This document shows positions 5,224-42,954 of a DNA stretch of 64,000 nt, piece after piece. Where the stretch lies: NCBI RefSeq assembly GCF_002259485.1, contig NZ_NPGA01000008.1, forward strand, positions 62,001 through 126,000. Direction: 5' to 3'. The position numbers and the translations under genes were made by a program. The DNA comes from Rhodococcus sp. 14-1411-2a. Its GTDB lineage: Bacteria > Actinomycetota > Actinomycetes > Mycobacteriales > Mycobacteriaceae. Within the stretch, counting starts at the first letter, position 1, and every line of letters starts with the position of its first letter. The notes beneath the pieces were generated by a model that saw only the letters and a program-made list of their open reading frames with translations, did no database searches and was not told where the DNA came from.

Positions 5224-6636
5224 GTGGCAACGAACAACTCGACATCGGAAGTCGGATTCCGCTCCGAACGCGGGCCGATACTGATTGCGTTGATGCTCAG
5301 CACGTCGCTGGTAGCCCTGGACGCGACCATCATCGCCACGGCGGTGCTGTCCATCGTCGACGACCTGGGCGGCTTCACGCAGTTTCCGTGGCTGTTCTCC
5401 ATCTATCTTCTGGCACAGGCAGTATCGGTGCCGCTGTACGGAAAACTGGCCGACCTGTTCGGCCGCAAGAAGATCATGCTGTTCGGCATCGCGGTGTTTC
5501 TGCTCGGCTCGATACTCTGCGGCCTGGCCTGGAGCATGCCCGCCCTGATCGCCTTCCGAGCAGTTCAGGGTCTCGGCGCGGGTGCCGTGCAGCCCATGGG
5601 CATCACCATCGCCGGCGATATCTACACGCTGGCCGAGCGCGCCAAGGTGCAGGGCTACCTGGCCAGCGTATGGGCGATGTCCTCGGTGCTCGGGCCCGCG
5701 CTCGGCGGAATTTTCTCCGAATACCTGTCGTGGCGCTGGATCTTCTTCGTCAACATTCCGTTGTGCGCGCTGGCCGCGGGGATGCTGTGGCGCAAGTTCG
5801 ACGAGGGAGCCGTGGAACGCACCAGGCCCAAGATCGACTACCTCGGTGCCGTGCTGCTGACGGTGGGCGCAGCCCTGGTGCTGCTGGGACTGCTCGAGGG
5901 CGGACAGTCCTGGGCATGGAACTCCCCCGTCAGCATCGCCATCTTCGCCGCCGGAGTCTCCTTGCTCGCCGCTTTCGCAGTGGTTCAGACCAGGGTCGAG
6001 GAGCCGATCCTGCCGCTATGGGTGTTCACCCGTCGTGTCCTGGTGGTCAGCAGTTTCATCTCGCTGCTCGTCGGTGCGTTGATCCTCGGCCTGACGTCCT
6101 ACGTTCCGACGTTCGTGCAGGGCGTGCTCGGCACCGGCGCGATCGTCGCCGGCTTCGCGCTGTCGACCCTCACGCTCGGCTGGCCCATCGCGGCATCACT
6201 CTCCGGGCGGGTGTACCTCCGGTTCGGTTTCCGCACCACAGCACTGATCGGTGCCTCCATCGCGGTCGTCGGAGCGGCATTCGCCACCGGCCTCGGTGCC
6301 GGTTCACAGGTGTGGCAGGTGGGTGCGGTGTGCTTCGTCATAGGCCTCGGTATGGGCCTGATCGCCAGCCCCACCCTCATCGCCGCCCAGTCGAGCGTCG
6401 AATGGTCCGAGCGCGGCGTCGCCACCTCGACCAACATGTTCGCCCGCTCCATCGGCAGTGCAGTCGGGGTCGCGGTGTTCGGTGCCATCGTCAACTCACG
6501 CATCTCCGACGATCCGAGCCCCGAACAACTGTCCGACGCCATCCATCCGGTCTTTCTGGGTGTCCTGGCGGCGGCAGCGGTGATGGCCGTCGCGGCACTG
6601 TTCATGCCCAAACGTGCGAAGGAACCGACCCGATAG
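5224..6636 (+). CDS. MFS drug:H+ antiporter (DHA2-type)
   Basis: This hydrophobic protein of about 470 residues has many membrane helices, the MFS motif A GKLADLFGRKK after helix 2, and a DHA2/EmrB-like N-terminus (LDATIIATAVLSIVDDLGG). It should export a hydrophobic compound using the proton gradient. The GTG at 5224 (MATNNS) gives a normal short cytoplasmic N-terminus. An upstream in-frame start at 5149 would overlap the start of divergent purC. The stop is 3 bases from the convergent ABC ATPase stop. The substrate cannot be predicted. Confidence 0.88.
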   Translation: MATNNSTSEVGFRSERGPILIALMLSTSLVALDATIIATAVLSIVDDLGGFTQFPWLFSIYLLAQAVSVPLYGKLADLFGRKKIMLFGIAVFLLGSILCGLAWSMPALIAFRAVQGLGAGAVQPMGITIAGDIYTLAERAKVQGYLASVWAMSSVLGPALGGIFSEYLSWRWIFFVNIPLCALAAGMLWRKFDEGAVERTRPKIDYLGAVLLTVGAALVLLGLLEGGQSWAWNSPVSIAIFAAGVSLLAAFAVVQTRVEEPILPLWVFTRRVLVVSSFISLLVGALILGLTSYVPTFVQGVLGTGAIVAGFALSTLTLGWPIAASLSGRVYLRFGFRTTALIGASIAVVGAAFATGLGAGSQVWQVGAVCFVIGLGMGLIASPTLIAAQSSVEWSERGVATSTNMFARSIGSAVGVAVFGAIVNSRISDDPSPEQLSDAIHPVFLGVLAAAAVMAVAALFMPKRAKEPTR

Positions 6637-6639
6637 CTC

Positions 6640-7695
6640 TCAACTCACCTGACGCGGAAACCAGTGCACCGGAGACGTCACGGACACCTCGACGGCGGTA
6701 CCGGGGGCAAATCGGTCGGCGGTTCGGGCGATGGCCCGAAGCCGCAGCCCGGTGTCGTAGTGCCGCAGAGTGACCGAGGATTCGGGGCCGGTGAAGAACT
6801 CGTGTTCGACGAAAAATGCGCCGTCCTTGCGTTCCGAGACCACCAATTGCTCGGGCCTGAGCAACGCCTGCCCGTTTCCCGTTGCTCGGGTGGTGGACTC
6901 GAGACGGCCGAGGACGGTGTCGACGTGGCCACCCCGCGCTACGGCGTCGACGAAGTAGGCGTCGCCCACGAACCGCGCGACGGCGGGTGTGGCGGGCCGC
7001 TCGTAGACCTCCCGCGGTGTGTCGATCTGGGCGCAGCGACCACCCAGCAGCACGGCCACCCGATCGGCTGTTCCGAGTGCCTCGGCCCGGTCGTGGGTGA
7101 CGAGGATCGACGCGGTCTTGCTGGACTGCAACAACTCTCGAACGTCCTGTCGAATGGAGGTACGCAGCCCCGCGTCGAGCGCGGCGAACGGCTCGTCCAT
7201 CAACACCACCGACGGAGCCGGTGCCAGCGCACGCGCCAACGCGATGCGCTGCTGCTGACCGCCCGAGAGTTCGCTGGGCTTCACCCCACCGGAATCGGGT
7301 AGTCCGACGAGTTCGAGCATCTCGTCGACGCGTCGTGCGCGCTCGTCGCGACCGGACAGGTAGGGCCGCAGAAACCCTGCACGCAAACCGAATTCGATGT
7401 TCCTTCGTACCGTCAGGTGTGGAAACAGTCCACCTTCCTGTGGCATCAGGCCTATGCCCCGCTTCTCCGGTGGCACCTGAATCTGCCCCGCCACCGAGAT
7501 GTCCCGTCCGTCGGAGGTGATCCGGCCCGCGTCGATGCGGTGCAGTCCCGCGATCGATCGCAACAGGGTCGTCTTGCCGCAGCCGGAAGGGCCGAGGACG
7601 GCAAGCATTTCGCCGTCACCGAGGTCGAGATCGATACCGTGCAGCACCGCCGTACTGCCGTACGAGGCGACGAGACCGGAAATCACCATGCTCAT
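6640..7695 (-). CDS. Iron(III)/spermidine-type ABC importer ATPase (FbpC-like)
   Basis: This 351-residue ATPase has Walker A GPSGCGKTT (about residues 35-43), the signature LSGGQQQRIALARAL, Walker B VLMDEPFAALD and the switch histidine in VTHDRAEAL. A C-terminal TOBE-like regulatory region follows. It powers the permease encoded just upstream. The ATG at 7695 overlaps the permease stop (ATGA); longer in-frame starts would run into the permease gene. It is the last gene of the operon. The iron(III) assignment rests on the binding protein. Confidence 0.92.
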   Translation of the reverse strand: MSMVISGLVASYGSTAVLHGIDLDLGDGEMLAVLGPSGCGKTTLLRSIAGLHRIDAGRITSDGRDISVAGQIQVPPEKRGIGLMPQEGGLFPHLTVRRNIEFGLRAGFLRPYLSGRDERARRVDEMLELVGLPDSGGVKPSELSGGQQQRIALARALAPAPSVVLMDEPFAALDAGLRTSIRQDVRELLQSSKTASILVTHDRAEALGTADRVAVLLGGRCAQIDTPREVYERPATPAVARFVGDAYFVDAVARGGHVDTVLGRLESTTRATGNGQALLRPEQLVVSERKDGAFFVEHEFFTGPESSVTLRHYDTGLRLRAIARTADRFAPGTAVEVSVTSPVHWFPRQVS

Positions 7696-9260
7696 GGCAG
7701 TGCTACTCGCTTCCGCGTCGTGCGTCCCAACGCTCGTGTCAGAACGACCGTCGGGACCACCGAGATCAGGATCAGGGCCAGGGCGTAGGGAGCAGCCTCG
7801 CCGTATCGGAACGCCTCGGTGGTGGACCACAGCGTGGTCGCGAGCGTGTCTACTCCCCGCGGCCGCAGCATCAACGTCGCAGGCAGTTCCTTGGCGACGG
7901 TCAGAAAGACCAGAGCGGCCCCGGCGGCGATGCCGGGCGCGGCGATAGGGATCGTCACGCGAAGATCGGTACGCAGCCGGCCCGCGCCGAGGGTTCGTGA
8001 AACATCCTCGAGGACAACGGGAGTGGCGTCGACGACAGCTCTGGTGCTACCTACGGCCAACGGCAGGAACAGCACCACGTAGGCCAGTACCAGCAGAACG
8101 GCCGTCTGATAGAACGACGGCAGGAACCGGATTCCGAGAAAGACCGTTGCGAGTCCGACGGTGATTCCCGGCAGCCCGTGCGCGATGTAGGTGGACAGCT
8201 CGGCACCGCGAGCGGCGCTCGACGTGGATCGGGCCGCGAACAGCGCGACCGGCAACGCGAGCACGGCCACCACCACCGCGGCGGTCGCGGAGTACTGGAC
8301 GGTCTTGGCGGTGACGGCCAGCACGTCCACCCAGTCGACGGTGAAGCGCAGCGATCGACTCAGCCACCGCGCCAGGGCCAGAATCGGTACCAGCACCGAA
8401 ACACCGAGGGCAGCAACGACTACGGCCAGAGCAGGCACGCGCCACCGGCCCAGAACGACAGGCTCGGCCATCCGGTCGGTTCCCGATCCCACCCTCGCCG
8501 TGGCACCGCGTCGGGCACGCCGTTCGAGGAGCGTGAGCACCAACGCACCCACCACGAGGACCAGCCCGAGAACAGCGGCCGCGGTGCGATCGAGTCCCCC
8601 GCGGTACGCACTGTAGATACCGAGTGTGAACGCGTCGTATCGCATCAGAGCCACCGCTCCGAAATCACTGATGGTGTACAGCGCGACCAGCAGTGCGCCC
8701 GCTGCCGCGGCCGGAACGACGCGACGGCACTCGACGGTCAGCGCCGTGCGCACTGCGCCTCGACCGAGGGTTCGCGAGACCTCGGCCAACGAGGGGTCCG
8801 CGGTGGCGAACGCCGCGGACACCGGCAGCATCACCAGCGGGAAGCAGGACAACGTGAGCACGAGAGCTGCACCGGAAAAGCCTGCCAACGAGGGGAATTC
8901 GGCGATCCACAGGTACCCCGAGACGTAGGACGGGATGGCGAGTGGAGCTGCGAGGACCATGGCGAAGAAGCGTCGCCCCGGCAGATCGGTACGGACGGTC
9001 AGCCACGCCAGCAGCGTCCCGACCACGACCGACGCGAGGAGCACGGTGATCGTCAGTGTTGCCGTACGAATGGCGAGGTCGAGTGTGCGCTGCCGCAGGA
9101 GCAGTCGCAGCACCTTCTCGGTTCCGCCGTCGAACGCTCGAACGAACAGGTAGACCAGGGGTGTCAGCGTCAGCGCTCCCACGCACAACGCGGCCGTCCC
9201 GAGAACGGGACGACCGCCGAAGTGGTGCCGCCGAAGCGGCTGAAGTGCAGACGCGAGCAC
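7692..9260 (-). CDS. Iron(III) ABC importer permease, fused two-domain (FbpB-like)
   Basis: About 522 residues with roughly 12 membrane helices carry two binding-protein-dependent transport domains in tandem. Each has an EAA-like loop (EVSRTLGRGAVRTALTVE and EDVSRTLGAGRLRTDLRVT) that docks the ATPase. Fused permeases of this kind are typical of FbpB/ThiP systems. The GTG at 9260 lies 4 bases after the binding-protein stop. Longer in-frame starts up to 9509 would sit inside the binding-protein gene and encode low-complexity Ser/Arg/Pro sequence, so I rejected them. Confidence 0.92.
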   Translation of the reverse strand: MLASALQPLRRHHFGGRPVLGTAALCVGALTLTPLVYLFVRAFDGGTEKVLRLLLRQRTLDLAIRTATLTITVLLASVVVGTLLAWLTVRTDLPGRRFFAMVLAAPLAIPSYVSGYLWIAEFPSLAGFSGAALVLTLSCFPLVMLPVSAAFATADPSLAEVSRTLGRGAVRTALTVECRRVVPAAAAGALLVALYTISDFGAVALMRYDAFTLGIYSAYRGGLDRTAAAVLGLVLVVGALVLTLLERRARRGATARVGSGTDRMAEPVVLGRWRVPALAVVVAALGVSVLVPILALARWLSRSLRFTVDWVDVLAVTAKTVQYSATAAVVVAVLALPVALFAARSTSSAARGAELSTYIAHGLPGITVGLATVFLGIRFLPSFYQTAVLLVLAYVVLFLPLAVGSTRAVVDATPVVLEDVSRTLGAGRLRTDLRVTIPIAAPGIAAGAALVFLTVAKELPATLMLRPRGVDTLATTLWSTTEAFRYGEAAPYALALILISVVPTVVLTRALGRTTRKRVALP

Positions 9261-10425: not shown

Positions 10426-11625
10426 ATGACCTCTCGTGTACTCGTCACCGGCGCCAGCATCGCCGGCCCCACCGCGGCGTTCTGGCTGGACCGAGCCGGC
10501 TTCGAGGTCACCGTCCTCGAACGCTCGCCGCACCTGCGACTGGGCGGCCAGAACATCGACGTCCGCGGCTCCGGCCGCGAGGTGCTGCGACGCATGGGTC
10601 TGGACGCGACCCTCCTCGCGAACGGCACCACCGAGAAGGGCACCCGATTCGTCGACGACGCCGACGCCACCATCGCGGCCTTCCCGGCCGGCGACGGATC
10701 CCACGACGGCCCGACGGCGGAGTTGGAAATTCTGCGCGGCGAGTTCGCGCGGATTCTGGTCGAGTCCGCCGGTTCACGCACCGAGTATCGCTACGGCGAT
10801 CGCGTCGTCGGGGTGACTCAGAATGCTGCCGGCGTCGATGTCACCTTCGCAACGGGCACAGCGGAGAGGTTCGACCTCGTTCTCTTCGCCGATGGAATAC
10901 GTTCCAGCAGCAGAGAACTGGTGTTCGCCGGCGAGGCCGAGACCACCCCGGTCGGCTTGTACACCGCATACGGCGTACTGCCGAAGGGACCGAGCGACGA
11001 CGGCTGGTGGCGATGGTACAACGCCCCCGGATCCCGAGTGGCCAATCTACGACCGGACAACCTCGGCACGACGCGATTCAGCCTGTCCTGGGTGTCCGAC
11101 GACAGCGGCTACGAGGGCGCGTCCACCGAACGTGTGATCACCGCTCTGCGTTCGACGTTCGCCGACGTCGGTTGGGAAGTGCCCCGAATCCTGGACTCGC
11201 TGGGACCGGACTCGGAGCTGTACGTCGACTATCTGGCGCAGGTGAAGGCCCCGCGCTGGTCCGACGGCAGAATCGGCATGCTCGGCGATGCCGCATGGTG
11301 CGCAACGCCGTTGAGCGGCATGGGCACCACGTTGTCAGTCACCGGCGCGTACGTTCTCGCCGGCGAGCTCGCGCGGGCGAGCGATCATCGCGCCGGGTTC
11401 GAGGCCTTCGAGACGCGCATGCGTCCGTTCGTCGCTCAGGCTCAGAAACTCCCACCCGGCGTGCCTCGCGTCGCGCATCCGAAGACCTCGGTGGGAGTCG
11501 CCGCATTCCGCACCGCACTGCGGCTGGCCGGATCGAAGCCGGTACAGGCCGTGAGCAGCAAGTTCCTCGGTCCCGACGCGGCGACACTCGAGCTGCCGGA
11601 CTACGAGTTCGACAACGCAGGTTAG
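10426..11625 (+). CDS. FAD-dependent monooxygenase (PHBH/UbiH-like)
   Basis: This 399-residue flavoprotein has an N-terminal dinucleotide motif TGASIAGPTAAFW and a late FAD motif GDAAWCATPLSGMGTT (bases about 11284-11330), as in aromatic-ring hydroxylases and related group A flavin monooxygenases. The ATG at 10426 begins directly before the Rossmann strand; an in-frame TTG at 10393 is less likely. Its stop overlaps the convergent siderophore-interacting gene by 4 bases. The substrate cannot be told from sequence, and the iron neighbours may be coincidental. Confidence 0.88.
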   Translation: MTSRVLVTGASIAGPTAAFWLDRAGFEVTVLERSPHLRLGGQNIDVRGSGREVLRRMGLDATLLANGTTEKGTRFVDDADATIAAFPAGDGSHDGPTAELEILRGEFARILVESAGSRTEYRYGDRVVGVTQNAAGVDVTFATGTAERFDLVLFADGIRSSSRELVFAGEAETTPVGLYTAYGVLPKGPSDDGWWRWYNAPGSRVANLRPDNLGTTRFSLSWVSDDSGYEGASTERVITALRSTFADVGWEVPRILDSLGPDSELYVDYLAQVKAPRWSDGRIGMLGDAAWCATPLSGMGTTLSVTGAYVLAGELARASDHRAGFEAFETRMRPFVAQAQKLPPGVPRVAHPKTSVGVAAFRTALRLAGSKPVQAVSSKFLGPDAATLELPDYEFDNAG

Positions 11626-12515
11626 AGCCCCACCCGCTCGAGCAGCGCATCGAATGCCTCGCTGGCTTCCTGCTCGGAGCGGCCGGACTCGATGACGCCG
11701 TTGTACACCGCGAGCGCCTCCTCCTGGTATTGCTTGTATTTCTCGAGCCACTTCTCGGAGTCGGCGCGCCAGTACCCGATGATGTCGAAGTACGCGATGT
11801 CGTAGCCCAATTCCTTGCGGAAGTACTTGCGCACCCGACGCGAGGACGACGCCTCGCCGGCGAACCACACGTAACCGCGCCCCTCGGGCAGGGGGTACGC
11901 CAATGCCGCGTCGTCGAGAACGCTTGCGCTGTCGCCGTTTCCGGATCCGATGCGCCAGTCGAACGTGACGTCGGCCTTGGTCTCGAAGGATTGGATGTCG
12001 CCGCGTTCGAGAACCTCGACGATCGCGTGCGCACGCATTTCGGCGGGCAACTGCTCGACGAGTCGGCCGAGTGCGGGCAGCCCGGTCATGTCCGCGACCA
12101 ACAGCAGCCATTCGACGTCGGGGGGCGGTGAATACCAGGATCGCGGCCGGGTGAACAGCACCGTCTGCCCCGGGACGGCCTGCTGCGCCCAGGTGGATGC
12201 GACACCGCCCTCGTGGGCGAAGAAGTCGATGGTCAGCTCACCGCGCTCCGGATCGAGACGGCGGATGGTGTAGTTGCGCCCTTCGGGAGCGTCGTCGAGA
12301 CCGTGGAACCACCAGAACCCGTCGACCTCGGTCATCGGCGGCGGGATCGCCTCGCCTGCCCTGGGGAAATAGACTCCGACGCATTCGTCGGGCACACCGA
12401 GCGTGCGGTAGCCGGCAACGTGCTCGCCGCCGAACGTCACGCGCACCATGTGCACCGTGAGACGTTCCACTGCAACGACGTCGGCGTAGTAGTAACCACG
12501 CGGTTGTTCGTTCAT
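11622..12515 (-). CDS. Siderophore-interacting protein (SIP/ViuB-type ferric reductase)
   Basis: This 297-residue protein of the SIP family has an N-terminal FAD-binding barrel with RNYTIRRLD and a C-terminal SIP domain (LLLVADMTGLPALGRL, then YVWFAGEASSSRRVRKYFR). Members reduce imported ferric siderophores with NAD(P)H so that iron is released in the cytoplasm. An iron-box-like site lies about 80 bases upstream (12594-12612), and the siderophore uptake genes follow on the same strand. Confidence 0.93.
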   Translation of the reverse strand: MNEQPRGYYYADVVAVERLTVHMVRVTFGGEHVAGYRTLGVPDECVGVYFPRAGEAIPPPMTEVDGFWWFHGLDDAPEGRNYTIRRLDPERGELTIDFFAHEGGVASTWAQQAVPGQTVLFTRPRSWYSPPPDVEWLLLVADMTGLPALGRLVEQLPAEMRAHAIVEVLERGDIQSFETKADVTFDWRIGSGNGDSASVLDDAALAYPLPEGRGYVWFAGEASSSRRVRKYFRKELGYDIAYFDIIGYWRADSEKWLEKYKQYQEEALAVYNGVIESGRSEQEASEAFDALLERVGL

Positions 12516-36511: not shown

Positions 36512-37629
36512 GTGCTCCGAAACGGATGAGACGAATACTGGGGAACAGCCTCCGATGGATCGGCCTCGCGGCCGTATCCGTCGGGGGCTGGGCCCTTTTC
36601 GCGGCCCTGGGCCTGACGGCACCGTCGTTGTTCGCGGCCCTCGTCGTCGCCGTGGTGTTCGCTCTGACCGGCCTCGGCCCGGCTGCGGTACCGCGCCCGG
36701 CGTCGATGGCAGCGCAGGGCACGCTGGCCGTCACCATCGGCCTCATGCTCGACACCGACACTCTCGGCGCGTTGGGCGAGAACTGGATTCCCGCCGTTCT
36801 CGTCGGTGCCGGGACGCTGGTCGTCAGCGCCGGTTGCGGCGCACTGCTCGCCCTGCATCGCGATGTCGACCCCGTCACCGGAGCACTGTCCCTGATCGCC
36901 GGTGGCGCAACGGGTCTGGTGTCCATCGCCCGAGAACTCGGCGGGGACGAGCGAATCGTGGCCGTGGTGCAATACCTGCGCGTCGCGCTCGTGGTGGTCA
37001 CCATGCCGCTGATCGTCACCTTCGCCTTCCACACCGACACCGGCGGCGGAGCAGGCGCGGACGATACGGCGACGACGCCCTGGTACATCGGCACGGCCTT
37101 TCTGATCGCCGCCGTCATCGCCGGAATCGTTCTGGCGCGGCTCATCCGACTGCCCGCGCCGGCGACACTCGGACCGCTGATCGTCGCCGGTGCCTGCGAA
37201 CTGCTCGGATGGCCCGTCGACATCTCGGTGCCCACGGTGCTGCTGCCGGTGGCGTTCATCGTCATCGGATGGCAAGCGGGGCTCGCCTTCACCGTGTCGA
37301 GCCTGCGGGCCATCGGTCGTATCTTCCCGTGGGCCGCGCTGCTGGTGCTCTCGATCGGGTTGGTGTGCGCGCTGTTCGGCTGGGCGCTGTCTGCGATCAC
37401 CGGGGTCAGCATGCTCACCGGGTACCTCGCGACCACACCCGGCGGCCTGGCCGCCGTGCTCGCCGTGTCTGCGACCACGGGGTCGGATGTCACCTTCGTC
37501 GCGTGTGTTCAGGTGATCCGACTGGTGTCGATGCTCGTGGCCGCGCCACTCGCCGCAGCCGCGTACACGAAACTGGCCGAGCGCAAGAAAGCCAGGACGG
37601 CGAGCGAATCAACCGTCGGCGCGGGGTAA
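36508..37629 (+). CDS. AbrB-type membrane protein (two AbrB duplication domains)
   Basis: This 373-residue polytopic protein has two repeated halves (GTLAVTIGLMLDTDTLG in the first, FIVIGWQAGLAFTVSSLRAIG in the second), the AbrB-dup/putative ammonia monooxygenase family of membrane proteins. Despite the name it is not the AbrB transition-state regulator. GTG 36508 overlaps the Usp stop; ATG 36526 is an alternative. Its place in the citrate operon suggests a transport or regulatory role linked to tricarboxylate use. The 3' end overlaps convergent phoR by 21 bases. Confidence 0.88.
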   Translation: MSAPKRMRRILGNSLRWIGLAAVSVGGWALFAALGLTAPSLFAALVVAVVFALTGLGPAAVPRPASMAAQGTLAVTIGLMLDTDTLGALGENWIPAVLVGAGTLVVSAGCGALLALHRDVDPVTGALSLIAGGATGLVSIARELGGDERIVAVVQYLRVALVVVTMPLIVTFAFHTDTGGGAGADDTATTPWYIGTAFLIAAVIAGIVLARLIRLPAPATLGPLIVAGACELLGWPVDISVPTVLLPVAFIVIGWQAGLAFTVSSLRAIGRIFPWAALLVLSIGLVCALFGWALSAITGVSMLTGYLATTPGGLAAVLAVSATTGSDVTFVACVQVIRLVSMLVAAPLAAAAYTKLAERKKARTASESTVGAG

Positions 37630-39024
37630 TTCGACCCGGAAGGTCGCACCCTGACCGGGGGCACTCTGCACCCGAACGGTGCCGTTGTGCGCCGCCACCA
37701 AGGCCGCGACGATCGAGAGCCCGAGCCCGCTGCCGCCGCTCTCGCGCGTCCGGGAGGAGTCGGCTCGATAGAAGCGCTCGAACACGTGCGCCGCCTCTTC
37801 CTCGCCCAGCCCGGGGCCGGTGTCCTGGACTTCGAGCAGTACCGAGGACTGGGTGGTCCCGACGCAGACGGTGATCGACGCCGATTCGGGTGTGTGCCGC
37901 ACCGCGTTTCCGACGAGGTTCGCCAGTACCTGGCGCAACCGAGCGTCGTCGCCGCTGACCTCGGGTATTCCCGGCCCTGCCAACACTTTCAGCGAGATGT
38001 CCCGCACGGGTGAGACCGCCTTGGCGTCGTGCACGGCATCGGCGGCGATGGTCAGTAGGTCGACGCGACGCATGTCGAGCGGGCGTTGCGCGTCGAGTCG
38101 CGCGAGCATCAGCAGGTCTTCGACGAGCAGGCCCATCCGCGCCGATTCGCCCTCGATACGCGTCATCAGCAACGAGATGTCGCTCATCGCGCCCTGCCGA
38201 TACAACTCGGCGAATCCGCGGATCGTCGTCAGCGGGGTACGCAGTTCGTGGCTGGCGTCGGCGACGAAGCGGCGCATCCGATCCTCGGACGCACGAGCCG
38301 CCTCCTCCGAGGCCGCAGTTGCCGCGAATGCCCGCTGAATCTGCGAAAGCATTCCGTTGAGGGCCAACGACAATCGGCCCACCTCGGTCTTCTCACTCCA
38401 CTCGGGAACCCGTCGATGCAGATCTCCGGCAGCGATGGCCGCGGCCGTCGTCTCCACTTCACGCAACGGTCGCAGACTGCGTCGCACCACGAAGTAGGCG
38501 ATCACGGCCAGGGCCAGCAACACGGCGGCGCCGATGTAGAACTGCAGCACCACGAGCCGGCTGACGGTCTGTTGGTTGGCGCTGAGCGACATGCCCACGG
38601 TGGTGGAACCCTCGCTGTTGGTCACCGTGATCACCCGCCACTCCTTCGACGGGTCGCCCTCGGAACCGACGGTCTTCGGAGTTGCCGACGGCGCACCGGA
38701 CAGGTCCGGAACACTCTCGGCCACATCGTTGATCGGGCCCCGGACGGTACCGTCGTTGGCCACGGACCGAACGAAGAAGTTCGTCGGCGGGCGGTTCGGG
38801 TTGGGTTCGTCGATCGGAAAGGGCGGGCGTTCGCCACCCGGTTTCGCCCATCCCTGGGACGCTTCGACCAGTTGACTGTCCAGGCGACGCATCAGGGACG
38901 ACTCGAGCGAGGACGTCACCGCCACCCCGGACGCCAGCAGGCCCAGCCCGACCAGGAGCAGCAACGCCGCGACCAAGGTGAAACGCAGCGGCAGGCTCCG
39001 AATCCGACCTCGAACGGCCGTCAC
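37609..39024 (-). CDS. phoR: Sensor histidine kinase PhoR
   Basis: This 471-residue EnvZ-type kinase has a helix near residues 15-36, a Pro-rich extracytoplasmic domain (about 37-157), a second helix (about 160-180), HAMP (about 181-235), the H-box ASHELRTPLTTIRG with His259, and a HATPase domain with NLVGNAVRHTP, DTGPGLGEEE and GSGLGLSIV. In mycobacteria PhoPR controls envelope lipids and pH/stress responses. The GTG start overlaps the phoP stop (GTGA). The stimulus is unknown. Confidence 0.88.
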   Translation of the reverse strand: MTAVRGRIRSLPLRFTLVAALLLLVGLGLLASGVAVTSSLESSLMRRLDSQLVEASQGWAKPGGERPPFPIDEPNPNRPPTNFFVRSVANDGTVRGPINDVAESVPDLSGAPSATPKTVGSEGDPSKEWRVITVTNSEGSTTVGMSLSANQQTVSRLVVLQFYIGAAVLLALAVIAYFVVRRSLRPLREVETTAAAIAAGDLHRRVPEWSEKTEVGRLSLALNGMLSQIQRAFAATAASEEAARASEDRMRRFVADASHELRTPLTTIRGFAELYRQGAMSDISLLMTRIEGESARMGLLVEDLLMLARLDAQRPLDMRRVDLLTIAADAVHDAKAVSPVRDISLKVLAGPGIPEVSGDDARLRQVLANLVGNAVRHTPESASITVCVGTTQSSVLLEVQDTGPGLGEEEAAHVFERFYRADSSRTRESGGSGLGLSIVAALVAAHNGTVRVQSAPGQGATFRVELPRADG

Positions 39025-39728
39025 CGTGGCTGGCGCATGACGTAGCCGACGCCTCGCAGTGTGTGAATCAAGCGAGTGTCTCCGGTATCGACCTTGCGAC
39101 GTAGATACGACACATACGACTCCACCACTCCCACTTCACCACCGAAGTCGTAGTGCCACACGTGATCGAGGATTCGCGGCTTGCTCAGCACGGTTCCCGC
39201 GTTCACCATGAAGTACCGCAGCAGCGTGAACTCGGTGGGCGAGAGCGAGATCGGCTCACCTGCCTTCCACACCTCGTGGGTGTCGTCGTCGAGTTCGATG
39301 TCCGCGAACGCAACTCGCGACGGCTGCGCGTCCTCGCTCTTGCCGGACCGGCGCAGGATCACTCGGAGTCGGGCCACCACTTCCTCGAGCGAGAACGGCT
39401 TGGTGACGTAGTCGTCCGCACCGAGGGTCAGCCCGGTCACCTTGTCTTCCACCGAGTCACGCGCGGTCAGGAACAGGGCAGGCGCATCGATTCCGTCGGC
39501 CCGCAGTCGACGCAGCAGACCGAACCCGTCCATGCCGGGCATCATCACGTCGAGAATGAGAGCCTCGGGCCTGAAGTTGCGCGCCTTGTCGAGAGCCTCG
39601 GGACCGGACGACGCAGTCGCCACCTCGAATCCCTGGTACCTCAGGCTGACCGACAGCAGTTCGACGATGGTCGGTTCGTCGTCGACGATCAGGACTCTGG
39701 CCTCGGGTGTCTCGCTCACGGTGTCCAT
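39021..39728 (-). CDS. phoP: OmpR-family response regulator PhoP
   Basis: This 235-residue regulator has a receiver domain (phosphoacceptor Asp60 in LILDVMMPGMDGFG; LTARDS; DYVTKPFSLEEVVAR) and an OmpR winged helix (LSPTEFTLLRYF, then VESYVSYLRRK and HTLRGVGYV). From memory it matches M. tuberculosis PhoP along almost its whole length, much closer than to MprA or TrcR. ATG 39728 is chosen. Upstream, 36-53 bases from the start, is a perfect PhoP-type direct repeat (39764-39781), so autoregulation is likely. Confidence 0.92.
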   Translation of the reverse strand: MDTVSETPEARVLIVDDEPTIVELLSVSLRYQGFEVATASSGPEALDKARNFRPEALILDVMMPGMDGFGLLRRLRADGIDAPALFLTARDSVEDKVTGLTLGADDYVTKPFSLEEVVARLRVILRRSGKSEDAQPSRVAFADIELDDDTHEVWKAGEPISLSPTEFTLLRYFMVNAGTVLSKPRILDHVWHYDFGGEVGVVESYVSYLRRKVDTGDTRLIHTLRGVGYVMRQPR

Positions 39729-39763
39729 CTTCGCGCGAGATGCTGCTCGTTCGCTGGACTCTC

Positions 39764-39781
39764 GCTGTGAGGTTGCTGTGA
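39764..39781 (-). promoter_or_regulatory. PhoP box (7-4-7 direct repeat)
   Basis: Plus strand GCTGTGA-N4-GCTGTGA reads TCACAGC-N4-TCACAGC on the phoP strand, identical to the mycobacterial PhoP consensus as I recall it. It lies in the divergent region between phoP and the YraQ-family permease gene. Confidence 0.8.
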
Positions 39782-39845
39782 GCCACCCACAACGAAGTTG
39801 CCGCGAGCCACCGACAACGAGGTTGCCGCGAGCCACCGACGACAC
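39771..39845. repeat. Three tandem 25-base repeats in the phoP/permease divergent region
   Basis: Units at 39771-39795, 39796-39820 and 39821-39845 share the pattern GTTGCYGYGAGCCACC followed by CACAACGA or a close variant. Unit 1 contains the right PhoP half-site GCTGTGA, and units 2 and 3 have GCCGCGA at the same place. Confidence 0.85.
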
Positions 39846-39863
39846 AGCCCAGCCACAGGGGGC

Positions 39864-40880
39864 ATGATGGCAGCGATGCTCGACGCGAAGACCGACGGCC
39901 GAATCAGGACTCGGTCTCCCGTGTCATCCATGCACGTATTCGCAACTCTGCTCGTATTGGGCATCGTCTTCGGTGCCGATATCGCGCGATGGGTCGACTC
40001 GTCCCCTGCGCTGAAGACCGGCGCGACGGTGTTCACCGGGATCTTCGTGCAGGCGACGCCGTTCCTGGTGCTCGGAGTACTCGTCAGTGGAAGTATCGCC
40101 GCGTTCGTCTCGCCGTCGGTGCTGCGACGAGTGGTCCCGAAGAACCAAACGGCTGCCGTCGGAGTGACGGGACTGGCCGGAATGGCGCTGCCCGGTTGTG
40201 AGTGCGGTGCCGTTCCCGTCTCGCGTCGGCTGATGGATCAGGGTGTTCCGGCATCGGCCGCCCTCGCGTTCCTGCTGTCGGCGCCGGCGATCAACCCGGT
40301 CGTCCTGGTCTCGACCGCGGTGGCTTTTCCCGGCGAACCCGGCATGGTTCTCGCGCGGTTCCTCGGCTCGCTCGCCACTGCACTGGTGATGGGTTGGCTG
40401 TGGACTCGATTCGGCAAGGCGGAGTGGATCACCGCGCGGCTGGCCGCTCGCGGACACGATCACGACCGCTCGAAGTGGGAGACGTTCCGCGAGTCGGCGC
40501 GTGCTGACCTGCTTCAGGCCGGGGCATTTCTCGTGTTCGGTGCCGCGGCCGCCGCCCTGCTGCATCTGGTGATTCCGGACTGGGTGTTCGCCCATCTCGC
40601 CGGGCAGTTGCTGCTGTCGATCCTGGTGATGGCCGTACTCGCGGTGATTCTGGCGCTGTGTTCGGAGGCCGATGCGTTCGTTGCCGCCAGCATGTCGATG
40701 CTGCCGCTGCTTCCGCGGTTGGTCTTCCTGGTGGTCGGACCTGCCGTCGACGTGAAGCTGATGGCGATGCAGGCGGGCAGTTTCGGACGCGGGTTCGTCG
40801 CACGTTTCGCCCCGCTGACGTTCGTCGTCGCGATCGTGTGTGCCTCGGTGTGCGGCTACCTCGTTCTGGGAGCGCGATGA
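39864..40880 (+). CDS. YraQ/UPF0718-family permease
   Basis: This 338-residue membrane protein has about eight helices. It carries the family's conserved cysteine motif LPGCECGAVPVSRRL in the first half and ALCSEADAFVAAS in the second (the two symmetric halves of DUF318/YraQ permeases). A His/Asp cluster (RGHDHDRSK) lies in the central loop. CAGGGGG precedes the ATG at 39864; ATGs at 39867 and 39876 are alternatives. It overlaps the TIGR03943-type gene by 4 bases. The substrate is unknown; metal or metal-complex transport has been suggested for the family. Confidence 0.9.
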   Translation: MMAAMLDAKTDGRIRTRSPVSSMHVFATLLVLGIVFGADIARWVDSSPALKTGATVFTGIFVQATPFLVLGVLVSGSIAAFVSPSVLRRVVPKNQTAAVGVTGLAGMALPGCECGAVPVSRRLMDQGVPASAALAFLLSAPAINPVVLVSTAVAFPGEPGMVLARFLGSLATALVMGWLWTRFGKAEWITARLAARGHDHDRSKWETFRESARADLLQAGAFLVFGAAAAALLHLVIPDWVFAHLAGQLLLSILVMAVLAVILALCSEADAFVAASMSMLPLLPRLVFLVVGPAVDVKLMAMQAGSFGRGFVARFAPLTFVVAIVCASVCGYLVLGAR

Positions 40881-41614
40881 AGCGCGAGGTGCAGAACCTT
40901 CTGCTGTTTCTCCTCGGCGGAGCCATGGTCAAGATCTCGTTGGACGGCAGCTTTGTGCGATACGTCAAACCGTCGCTGCATCCGTATCTGCTGACTGCCG
41001 GCGTGTTGATCGTGCTCCTGGCGGCCGCGTCGATCGTGGCCGACATCCGCCGCGGTGGGCCGGCCGACGACGGGCACGATCATGATTCGCGTCCGTACTG
41101 GCTGCTGTTGGTCCCGCTCGCGGTCATCCTGTTCGTCGCACCGCCCGCGCTGGGTGTCTCCGCGGTCGGCGATCGATCCGTCACCTCGGCGGCCGATCGT
41201 CAGCGGACAGCGTTTCCACCCCTCCCGGACGAGCGTGCGCCCGAGGTTCCGTTGCTCGATGTCGTACAACGCGCGGTCAGGGACACCGAAGGCAGCCTCG
41301 ACGGACGGGAGATTCGCGTCACCGGATTCGCCGTCGGCACCTCGAACGGAGGCTCGCCGCGCGCCGACGGCACGACGGACGGCATCGATCTCGCTCGCAT
41401 TCTGATCATCTGCTGCGCGGCCGACGCCAGGTCCGTTCGCATCCACCTCGACGCAGGTAGCGCGTCTCTCGACGACATTTCGGACGGCACCTGGCTGCGG
41501 TTATCGGGGACCGTCGACGCGGCCACAGCGACGGAGGACACCGCGTTCACACCCACGATGACCGTCTCGACGGTCGAGCGAATCGACGCGCCCGCGAACA
41601 CGTACGCGTACTGA
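40877..41614 (+). CDS. TIGR03943-family membrane subunit paired with YraQ permease
   Basis: This 245-residue protein has two N-terminal helices (LLLFLLGGAMVKISL, LLTAGVLIVLLAAASIVA), a short loop DDGHDHDSR, a third helix, and a long extracytoplasmic domain with a cysteine pair (LIICCAADARSVRI). Families of this type occur next to YraQ permeases and are thought to form a two-part system. Its ATG overlaps the permease stop (ATGA). The function is unproven. Confidence 0.88.
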   Translation: MKREVQNLLLFLLGGAMVKISLDGSFVRYVKPSLHPYLLTAGVLIVLLAAASIVADIRRGGPADDGHDHDSRPYWLLLVPLAVILFVAPPALGVSAVGDRSVTSAADRQRTAFPPLPDERAPEVPLLDVVQRAVRDTEGSLDGREIRVTGFAVGTSNGGSPRADGTTDGIDLARILIICCAADARSVRIHLDAGSASLDDISDGTWLRLSGTVDAATATEDTAFTPTMTVSTVERIDAPANTYAY

Positions 41615-41678: not shown

Positions 41679-41719
41679 TCGGACGAGCGCACCGTACCCG
41701 AACAGCGACAAGACGGTGC
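41679..41719 (+). promoter_or_regulatory. Guanidine-III (mini-ykkC-III) riboswitch
   Basis: The segment begins TCGGACGAGC and contains ACCGTACCCGA then CGACAAGACGGTGC. This follows the guanidine-III consensus as known from Thermobifida. The stem GCACCGT (41689-41695) pairs with ACGGTGC (41713-41719), and the pseudoknot TCGG (41679-41682) pairs with CCGA (41698-41701). The ribosome site AAGGAG starts directly after the 3' stem, so ligand binding can control translation of the exporter. Confidence 0.93.
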
Positions 41720-41733
41720 AAGGAGTGATTTTC

Positions 41734-42048
41734 GTGGCTTGGCTCATTCTCGTCGTCTCCGGCGTTCTCGAAGCGATCTGGGCGACCGCGCTCGGTAAGT
41801 CCGAGGGCTTCACCAAACTCGGACCGTCCGTCGTCTTCGGAGTCGCAGTGGTTCTCAGCATGATCGGTCTCGCGGTCGCGATGCGGTCGTTGCCCACCGG
41901 TACCGCCTACGCCGTCTGGGTGGGAATCGGTGCCACCCTCACCGTCGCGTACGCCATGATCACCGGCGAAGAAGCTGCGTCACTGCTCAAGGTGGCGCTT
42001 CTGGTCGGCATCGTCGGATGCGTCGTGGGACTGAAGGTTCTTCACTGA
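41734..42048 (+). CDS. gdx: Guanidinium exporter Gdx (SugE-type SMR protein)
   Basis: This protein of about 104 residues has four membrane helices and the SMR core with the essential glutamate (Glu13) in SGVLEAIWATALGKSEGFTKL, followed by AYAVWVGIGA. The Trp after Glu and the GFT motif mark the SugE/Gdx branch rather than the broad EmrE branch. It exchanges guanidinium for protons. The start is GTG 41734, about 9 bases after AAGGAG; an in-frame start at 41716 lies inside the riboswitch. The riboswitch independently supports guanidinium as substrate. Confidence 0.95.
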   Translation: MAWLILVVSGVLEAIWATALGKSEGFTKLGPSVVFGVAVVLSMIGLAVAMRSLPTGTAYAVWVGIGATLTVAYAMITGEEAASLLKVALLVGIVGCVVGLKVLH

Positions 42049-42080: not shown

Positions 42081-42884
42081 ATGAATTGGGTGTCAGCGAT
42101 CACACTGCCCGCGCGCGCCGGAATTGCCATCGCCGAGCAGGCGATCGGCGTCGCGGAGGTCGCGTTGGCCACCACCAGGATGGCCTTGGCCACCGGTGCA
42201 TCCGGCACCGCAGGTGTCGCCTCGCTCGCCAATCCACGCGGCGGCACCATGCAACTGCTCGCCCAGCTCGGCCAACTCACCTCCGACGACCGCGCCCTGG
42301 GCAACGCACTCAAGGAAGGCGGACCCTTGGACCGCCTTCTCGCCCAGGGCGGCGTCGTCGACCGCCTCACCTCCGAGGACGGCACCCTCGAGCGGTTGCT
42401 CTCCCCGGGTGGCCCGGTAGAGCGAATTCTCGCTCCGGGCGGACCCTTGGACCGGCTGCTCGCCGAGGACGGACCGCTCGAACGACTGCTCGCCGAAGGC
42501 GGTCTGCTCGACCGCATCACCGCCACCAACGGACCGCTCGAACGACTGACGGCCAAGGACGGCCCGCTCGAGGTGCTCACGCGTCAGGACGGCCTGATCG
42601 AGCGTGCCATCGCCGAGGAGGGCATCCTCGAAACTCTGCTCGCCGAGGACGGTGCCATCGAGCGACTGACAGCCAAGGGCGGACCGCTCGATCAGCTGGT
42701 CAAGCTGTCGGAGACACTGACGTCGGTGGCCCCGAACATCGAGCGGATGAGCATCTCGATCGACATCCTGCAGGATTCCGTGGAGATCCTCTCGGCTGCG
42801 GTCCACCCACTGGGCGAGCTGGTCGGCCGACTCCCGAGTCGCTGGCTCAAGAGCGGGAAACAGTCGGTTCACGAGTTGCACTGA
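42081..42884 (+). CDS. Protein with 13 tandem decapeptide repeats, function unknown
   Basis: This 267-residue protein has three parts. Residues 1-80 are Ala-rich and amphipathic (SAITLPARAGIAIAEQ). Residues 81-210 are 13 exact 10-residue repeats in register with consensus G-P-L-[DE]-R-L-[LT]-[AS]-x-[DG], for example GPLDRLLAED and GPLERLLAEG. Residues 211-267 form a predicted helical, coiled-coil-like tail (LSETLTSVAPNIERMSISID) ending in a basic stretch. There is no signal peptide or clear membrane span. I do not recognise a family. It stands alone between gdx and the sugar operon, with its own gap on each side. Confidence 0.85.
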   Translation: MNWVSAITLPARAGIAIAEQAIGVAEVALATTRMALATGASGTAGVASLANPRGGTMQLLAQLGQLTSDDRALGNALKEGGPLDRLLAQGGVVDRLTSEDGTLERLLSPGGPVERILAPGGPLDRLLAEDGPLERLLAEGGLLDRITATNGPLERLTAKDGPLEVLTRQDGLIERAIAEEGILETLLAEDGAIERLTAKGGPLDQLVKLSETLTSVAPNIERMSISIDILQDSVEILSAAVHPLGELVGRLPSRWLKSGKQSVHELH

Positions 42885-42940
42885 CGCCCCGGCCCCTCCG
42901 GCGAAGATTCTCGACTCTCGGGGCTGCGGCGTCGACTCGT

Positions 42941-42954
42941 TGTTAGCGCTCACA
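42941..42954. promoter_or_regulatory. LacI-type operator O1
   Basis: TGTTAGCGCTCACA is a near-palindrome with the central GCGC typical of LacI-family sites. A second copy lies 56 bases downstream. Both precede the monosaccharide ABC operon, whose last neighbour encodes a LacI-family regulator. Confidence 0.75.

Follow-up and report, generated by a model that had tools for sequence, protein, structure and literature searches.

Introduction

In alpha-solenoid proteins built of TPR, HEAT or ARM repeats, each unit spans about 30-45 residues and contributes two or three helices. The Rhodococcus protein described here is predicted to share with them stacked helices, a buried hydrophobic ladder and a length set by the number of units, but its unit has ten residues and a single predicted helix, and it gave no Pfam match and no PDB fold match to TPR, HEAT, ARM or PUM. 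The gene lies in a stretch of 64,000 nucleotides of Rhodococcus sp. 14-1411-2a DNA, which was analysed whole and is called the window throughout.

By position, and by the length we take it to have, the putative counterpart in Mycobacterium tuberculosis is Rv0756c, a conserved protein of unknown function encoded divergently from phoP. Relative to phoP, Rv0756c sits where M. uberis and Mycobacterium MAGs have their copies, whereas in the window ArsP, DUF1980 and SMR genes come between phoP and the repeat gene. In the available sections of the papers that name it, Rv0756c adjoins phoP (PMC4038636, PMC8912993), an M. bovis strain carries an IS6110 site at Rv0756c:phoP (PMC8912993) and Rv0756c is among the differentially expressed unknowns of resistant isolates (PMC3552959); PMC9637126 names it too. 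Those sections of PMC4038636, PMC8912993 and PMC3552959 state nothing on its function. Literature searches with the repeat strings GPLDRLL, GPLERLL, GGLVDRLT and GPLERLTA, or for decapeptide or ten-residue repeats, found no report; those on M. smegmatis and other homologues, through presumed locus tags, found nothing further, and none described localisation or a mutant phenotype of the family.

A decapeptide-repeat gene with fifteen in-register units

The repeat gene (P0001; 42081..42884, + strand, stop included) translates to 267 amino acids and a stop and is single-copy in its genome, where the sole other match had an E value of 2. The protein begins with an Ala-rich N-terminal region (residues 1-60; 42081..42260), in which a helix was predicted at residues 3-40 with low confidence (block pLDDT 42-57). 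Two degenerate in-register units, recognised by unit profile and alignment, follow at residues 61-80 (42261..42320), then thirteen decapeptide units at residues 81-210 (42321..42710), and finally a C-terminal region (residues 211-267; 42711..42881) with a predicted helix at 202-250, another at 253-258 and an amphipathic basic stretch at its end, all on the + strand. The original prediction had described the thirteen units as gapless, with the consensus G-P-L-[DE]-R-L-[LT]-[AS]-x-[DG] and a DNA period of 30 bases; the translation agrees, with zero insertions or deletions, and Tandem Repeats Finder returned 30-bp periods at 42318-42502 and 42462-42571. Within residues 61-215, identity at lags of 10, 20, 30 and 40 residues was 0.42, 0.42, 0.46 and 0.43, compared with a top value over all lags of 0.24 among 2,000 residue shuffles. 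A unit profile trained on the family recognised fifteen units in register, beginning at residue 61 with the degenerate pair (61-80), of which the second holds a widely shared R-[AP]-L-G motif. The protein is acidic (pI 4.8), and the array carries a net charge of -11, which is also the median of 54 members.

Compared with 11 relatives, the array differed at third positions in 0.45-0.58 of codons and at second positions in 0.05-0.14 when read in the + frame, and this predominance of third codon positions shows + to be the coding strand. An antisense ORF (42093-42953, - strand, 286 amino acids) spans the whole repeat gene and also has a ten-residue period, but the same third-position changes show the + strand to be the coding one. 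A longer reading frame of 288 amino acids is open from an alternative start at 42018; we favour the one at 42081, whose M1 is invariant in a 53-row alignment, the rows of which had been trimmed beforehand to the start codon nearest to the equivalent of 42081. A promoter and terminator scan gave no predictions.

The unit is conserved across the family and under selection

A position-weight profile was used to survey 79 members, no two alike over their last 150 residues, and yielded 1,092 units. Each member had 8-21 units, and since 966 of the 1,013 successive spacings were exactly 10, the array changes length in whole units. The consensus across the family was G-[P/L/A/V]-[L/V/I]-[D/E]-[R/Q]-[L/A/I]-[L/T]-A-[E/P]-[G/D]. 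Over all 1,092 units the hydrophobic fraction was 1.00 at position 3 and 0.99 at position 6, while acidic residues made up 0.84 of position 4, basic ones 0.74 of position 5 and Gly 0.87 of position 1. Homologues lacking the ten-residue period, which would have spoken against the original prediction, were absent from the 79 profiled members, all of which had been found with a repeat-containing query; the lack of repeat-free members is partly built in, because that query itself carried repeats.

Purifying selection acts on the array, for which comparisons with the 11 relatives gave dN of 0.11-0.22 (0.114-0.224) and dS of 0.84-1.37; in 10 of these 11 comparisons dN was lower in the array than in the N-terminal region. 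We considered the array as a recently slipping VNTR and rejected this for close relatives, as units match best at their own position: among seven close relatives, same-position unit identity was 0.83-0.85 against 0.40-0.42 elsewhere, and 13-15 of 15 units matched best in their own place. For the distant members L072, L065, L064 and L094, same-position identity was 0.36-0.40, no better than elsewhere.

Matches (E<=0.001) were found in at least 150 of the 201 sampled genomes of the window's GTDB family, covering 25 of its 31 genera, with at most the best 12 candidates scored per genome. The 53-member profile (A1) matched at least 35 of 296 genomes of the class sample, among the best 8 or fewer candidates of each, these being 23 of the window's own family, 8 of family f28 and 4 of family f15, the last matching by the C-terminal region only. 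In the phylum sample at least 5 of 198 genomes matched (at most the best 12 candidates each), all from the window's own family. Genus g22 of that family gave no match even at E<=1 in three genomes with all candidates scored. Named relatives belong to Rhodococcus, Rhodococcoides and Mycobacterium, and several actinomycete MAGs also carry the gene; the M. uberis copy (L061) was 33% identical to the window protein across residues 2-252 (E 1e-29 among the candidates; phmmer E 3.8e-33). A plasmid search matched 8 records, none spanning 80% of the query; two Tsukamurella tyrosinosolvens plasmid records are among the relatives, one copy being annotated as a hypothetical protein. A phage search gave no match.

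The protein ends and stand-alone C-terminal relatives

The N-terminal helix is hydrophobic but has little amphipathicity, muH not exceeding 0.23 in windows that begin at residues 1-22, and in L079 and L086, which are paralogue-type members, a basic stretch takes the place of the Ala-rich helix. Residues 243-260 form an amphipathic, basic stretch (muH 0.53, charge +3), and a net positive charge at the end of the C-terminal region was seen in no more than 36 of 54 members. The C-terminal region is coiled-coil-like, its best PDB profile match being a designed coiled coil (E 8.6e-6) with no single stretch passing. Two sub-threshold C-terminal hits (L141, L143) fell in proteins that we take to be MCE-like; this link was put down to coiled-coil noise, and the window protein had no Pfam match to an MCE domain.

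Some proteins share the C-terminal region alone and are without a decapeptide array. Stand-alone proteins of family f15 matched the family profile in its C-terminal part, with E values between 3e-9 and 2.8e-7, and a reverse search with them found the repeat gene in the window's genome (E 8.9e-6). Two are of 131 amino acids (L130, L131) and two lie in longer ORFs (L129, L132), sharing the C-terminal region but having no decapeptide array. Small proteins with the ending A/SPLQG-x-x-ERLGRLVDRLP-x-R were seen in L130 (3589-3984), L131 (1674-2069), L132, L129 and L140 (1126-1878), and such array-less proteins would form a helix-hairpin family of actinobacteria that is so far unnamed.

The repeat gene lies near a divergent phoP in many loci

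In the window, a gene for an SMR (small multidrug resistance) protein (41716..42048, + strand; Pfam PF00893, E 5.1e-19) ends 32 bp upstream of the repeat gene. Before it lie an ArsP_1-type permease (ORF 39798-40880, + strand; PF03773, E 2.5e-47) and a DUF1980 protein (ORF 40658-41614, + strand; PF21537, E 1.2e-10), for both of which (39798..41614) the starts are mechanical and the true starts further in. On the - strand lie a response regulator gene of phoP type (39021..39845, a mechanical ORF with a likely ATG start near 39728), which we call phoP from its presumed similarity to mycobacterial PhoP, and a phoR-type sensor kinase gene (37609..39024, from the ORF list and locus comparison). The divergent phoP is 2.3 kb from the repeat gene.

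A census covered 64 copies flanked by 3.9 kb or more on both sides, with phoP called at 65% identity or more and the broken phoP of M. uberis included. The phoP gene lay within 4 kb in 40 of the 64 loci and was divergent every time, the proportion by group being 1/1 for the window, 25/27 for named contigs, 12/27 for representatives picked across genera and 2/9 for further loci. In mycobacterial-type loci the distance was 131-231 bp (L055, L059, L060, L061, L081, L087, L135, L136), whereas in rhodococcal loci the SMR gene intervenes, as it does between phoP and the repeat gene of the window, which additionally has the ArsP_1 and DUF1980 genes. Because the mycobacterial and rhodococcal branches of the tree both have the adjacency, it is probably ancestral. 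Some copies away from phoP lie near genes for an HhH-GPD protein and a secretory lipase, and a copy in family f28 lies near a gene that we take to be rpsA. In L063 the family is present twice in one genome, as diverged copies (7150-7923 and 11552-12313) separated by about 3.6 kb, the first of them beside phoP. In M. uberis (L061, 3660-5810) phoP matches as three fragments, each in a different frame, and phoR as four, so both are broken; the ORF of the repeat gene there (5986-6708) stays open, with a degenerate array.

A PhoP box (TCACAGC-AACC-TCACAGC; 39764..39781, - strand) matched at 14 of 14 positions, a score reached by 0 of 200 shuffles, against a consensus that we assume and that was checked for the M. 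tuberculosis motif only as a bipartite direct repeat. Across 62 loci, the PhoP-box-like site before phoP matched at 13 or more of 14 positions in 30 (0 of 200 shuffles each), at 11-12 in 26 and at 10 or fewer in 6. A 25-bp tandem repeat of 2.9 copies (39769-39840) overlaps the box of the window, each copy holding an intact or degenerate second half-site, as if the PhoP operator had been duplicated there.

Predicted structure of the array

AlphaFold2 was run on the window protein with alignment A1 of 53 homologues (model 1) and on a 20-unit relative, L066, with alignment A2 of 20 rows (model 2), most of which have 51% identity or less to the L066 array. Model 1 has twelve separate six-residue helices, from 82-87 to 192-197, and one at 72-77, joined by four-residue turns, with the last unit merging into the long helix 202-250; block pLDDT was 79-89 over residues 81-210 and 42-52 over the N-terminal 50 residues, with a pTM of 0.28. 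In the L066 model, 16 of the 20 units form a six-residue helix; of the other four, one has a shorter helix, two run together into one and the final unit continues into the C-terminal helix. Confidence fell to 53-62 in mid-array, and pTM was 0.30. As pTM was only 0.28 and 0.30, the overall shape of a rod is not predicted.

A structure search for a known fold, with Foldseek against the PDB, returned 0 chains at E<=10 for either model, which is weak evidence from models of such low pTM, and model 1 against a viral library reached at best E 3.8. AlphaFold2 may return confident but unreal solenoids, mainly beta, for perfect repeats of random sequence, according to the available part of PMC11795689. 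Because AlphaFold2 solenoids of repeats can be unreal, we treat the solenoid of the array as a prediction, which is backed by the sequence chemistry of the unit. Of the elongated helical-solenoid scaffold first proposed, the solenoid was recovered in the predictions for two members; a tie to envelope, lipid body or nucleoid, also suggested, is conjectural. The nearby divergent phoP, the array-less C-terminal relatives and the mycobacterial counterpart come in addition to that proposal. The models would place the protein among repeat-protein solenoids, with a unit not described before.

A proposed function and its alternatives

We propose, with a probability of roughly 0.4, that the protein is a cytoplasmic, membrane-peripheral helical rod that would serve, on the inner side of the cell membrane, as a rigid spacer or scaffold. 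In each unit, positions 2-7 would form a short helix and positions 8-10 and 1 a turn rich in Gly, with the Leu, Val or Ile at positions 3, 6 and often 7 packed inside and the Asp/Glu-Arg pair (positions 4-5) on the outer face. Units so stacked would give a thin rod with a length set by unit number, and the N-terminal helix and the coiled-coil-like C-terminal helix, with its basic amphipathic end, may attach this rod to the membrane or to a partner. A protein forming such rods would probably be oligomeric. The phoP neighbour makes a role in envelope state plausible, and from it we infer a possible link to the envelope state governed by PhoPR. The rod reading draws on the unit chemistry, the change of length in whole units, the helices predicted in both models, the coiled-coil-like C-terminal region with its basic end, the purifying selection on the array and the nearby divergent phoP. 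Counting against it are the low pTM, the mid-array drop in confidence and the fused units of the L066 model, the unreal solenoids that AlphaFold2 can return, an N-terminal helix of little amphipathicity and low pLDDT, and a C-terminal end that is net positive in part of the members only.

A different and unlikely reading makes the protein an accessory of PhoPR, either sensing or tuning the membrane state that PhoR reads or being a PhoP target needed for the envelope response. In its favour, 40 of the 64 loci have a divergent phoP no more than 4 kb away; further support comes from the boxes of 13/14 or better before phoP in 30 of 62 loci and, in the available part of PMC4038636, a PhoP ChIP peak of M. 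tuberculosis assigned to Rv0756c/phoP and lying between the two; however, the same source gives a change of only -1.24 fold in Rv0756c RNA, wild type versus phoP mutant. That published value and the copies away from phoP disfavour a simple PhoP target. The box moreover faces phoP, with three genes between it and the repeat gene in the window, 24 of the 64 loci have no phoP within 4 kb and 6 of the 62 have no good box (10/14 or lower), and in M. uberis the repeat ORF is open beside broken phoP and phoR, though with its array degenerate.

A phasin- or perilipin-like coat protein of lipid droplets or storage granules would account for the Ala-rich N-terminal helix and the basic amphipathic C-terminal end, and many of the host actinomycetes store lipid, but we regard it as quite unlikely given an N-terminus that is only weakly amphipathic and three genomes of genus g22, in the same family, without a match at E<=1. 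No Pfam match to phasin- or perilipin-like proteins was found, and Rv0756c is not among the ten M. abscessus droplet candidates, of 228 proteins, tabulated in the available part of PMC11980559. That the array is a flexible, largely disordered low-complexity linker, with the mini-helix solenoid an AlphaFold2 artefact, would fit the low pTM of both models, the lack of a fold match and the published warning on repeats (PMC11795689, available part); a strict ten-residue register with hydrophobic positions 3 and 6 at 0.99-1.00, and a dN that in 10 of 11 comparisons is lower for the array than for the N-terminal region, would be unusual for such a linker, which makes it rather improbable. Binding to DNA or the nucleoid draws on the basic C-terminal end of some members only and, with a pI of 4.8 and an array charge of -11, is highly improbable.

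If the membrane-peripheral rod is the right reading, most sampled genomes of the mycobacterium-rhodococcus family would hold, beside phoP, which ranks among the best studied regulators of actinobacteria, a protein with a repeat fold lacking a solved relative. Its short regular repeat would offer a test case for repeat structure prediction and a simple module for the design of rods, and, through its position, the gene would allow a direct genetic test for an unrecognised partner of PhoPR. A bolder form of this proposal, which we hold to be doubtful, would make the protein the natural alpha-solenoid with the shortest unit, of a fold class without a solved representative, serving as a length-tunable, membrane-attached ruler functionally tied to PhoPR in mycobacteria and rhodococci.

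Weak matches and other repeat proteins

The suggestion that no characterised family has this unit held in our searches, in which the repeats matched none in Pfam, NCBIfam, PHROGs or PDB sequences; in PHROGs, where the best E was 0.06, no family claims the window protein. Pfam BAT reached E 5.3e-4 and 20.3 bits against a cut-off of 25.8 and touched 5 of 53 members; Pfam Zn_ribbon_Com was below its cut-off for the window protein and touched 9 of 53; NCBIfam AAC(3)-II touched 14 of 53 (best E 6.9e-5), the window protein scoring 14.1 bits against a cut-off of 480, and a weak PDB match to an AAC(3) (7lao, E 0.28) covered the same region, residues 50-96. We took all three to be chance or compositional matches. 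Ten being two times five, pentapeptide repeats were also considered, and one weak tblastn hit fell on a Priestia pentapeptide gene; they were rejected, as the hit lies antisense to that gene, Pfam gave no match, identity at lag 5 was 0.07 and the model is helical and not of beta coils.

A Sulfitobacter protein (WP_243268105.1) has a ten-residue D-G-L-V-G-G-L-L-G-D/E repeat with Gly and hydrophobic residues at matching places, but it is of 1,046 amino acids, lies next to TolC and a type I secretion permease, and no shared N- or C-terminal region was found; judged on sequence, the likeness is probably convergent. Its locus is on the Sulfitobacter plasmid pDSM110093_b (L138, 4128-7268) and encodes many ten-residue Gly/Leu repeats.
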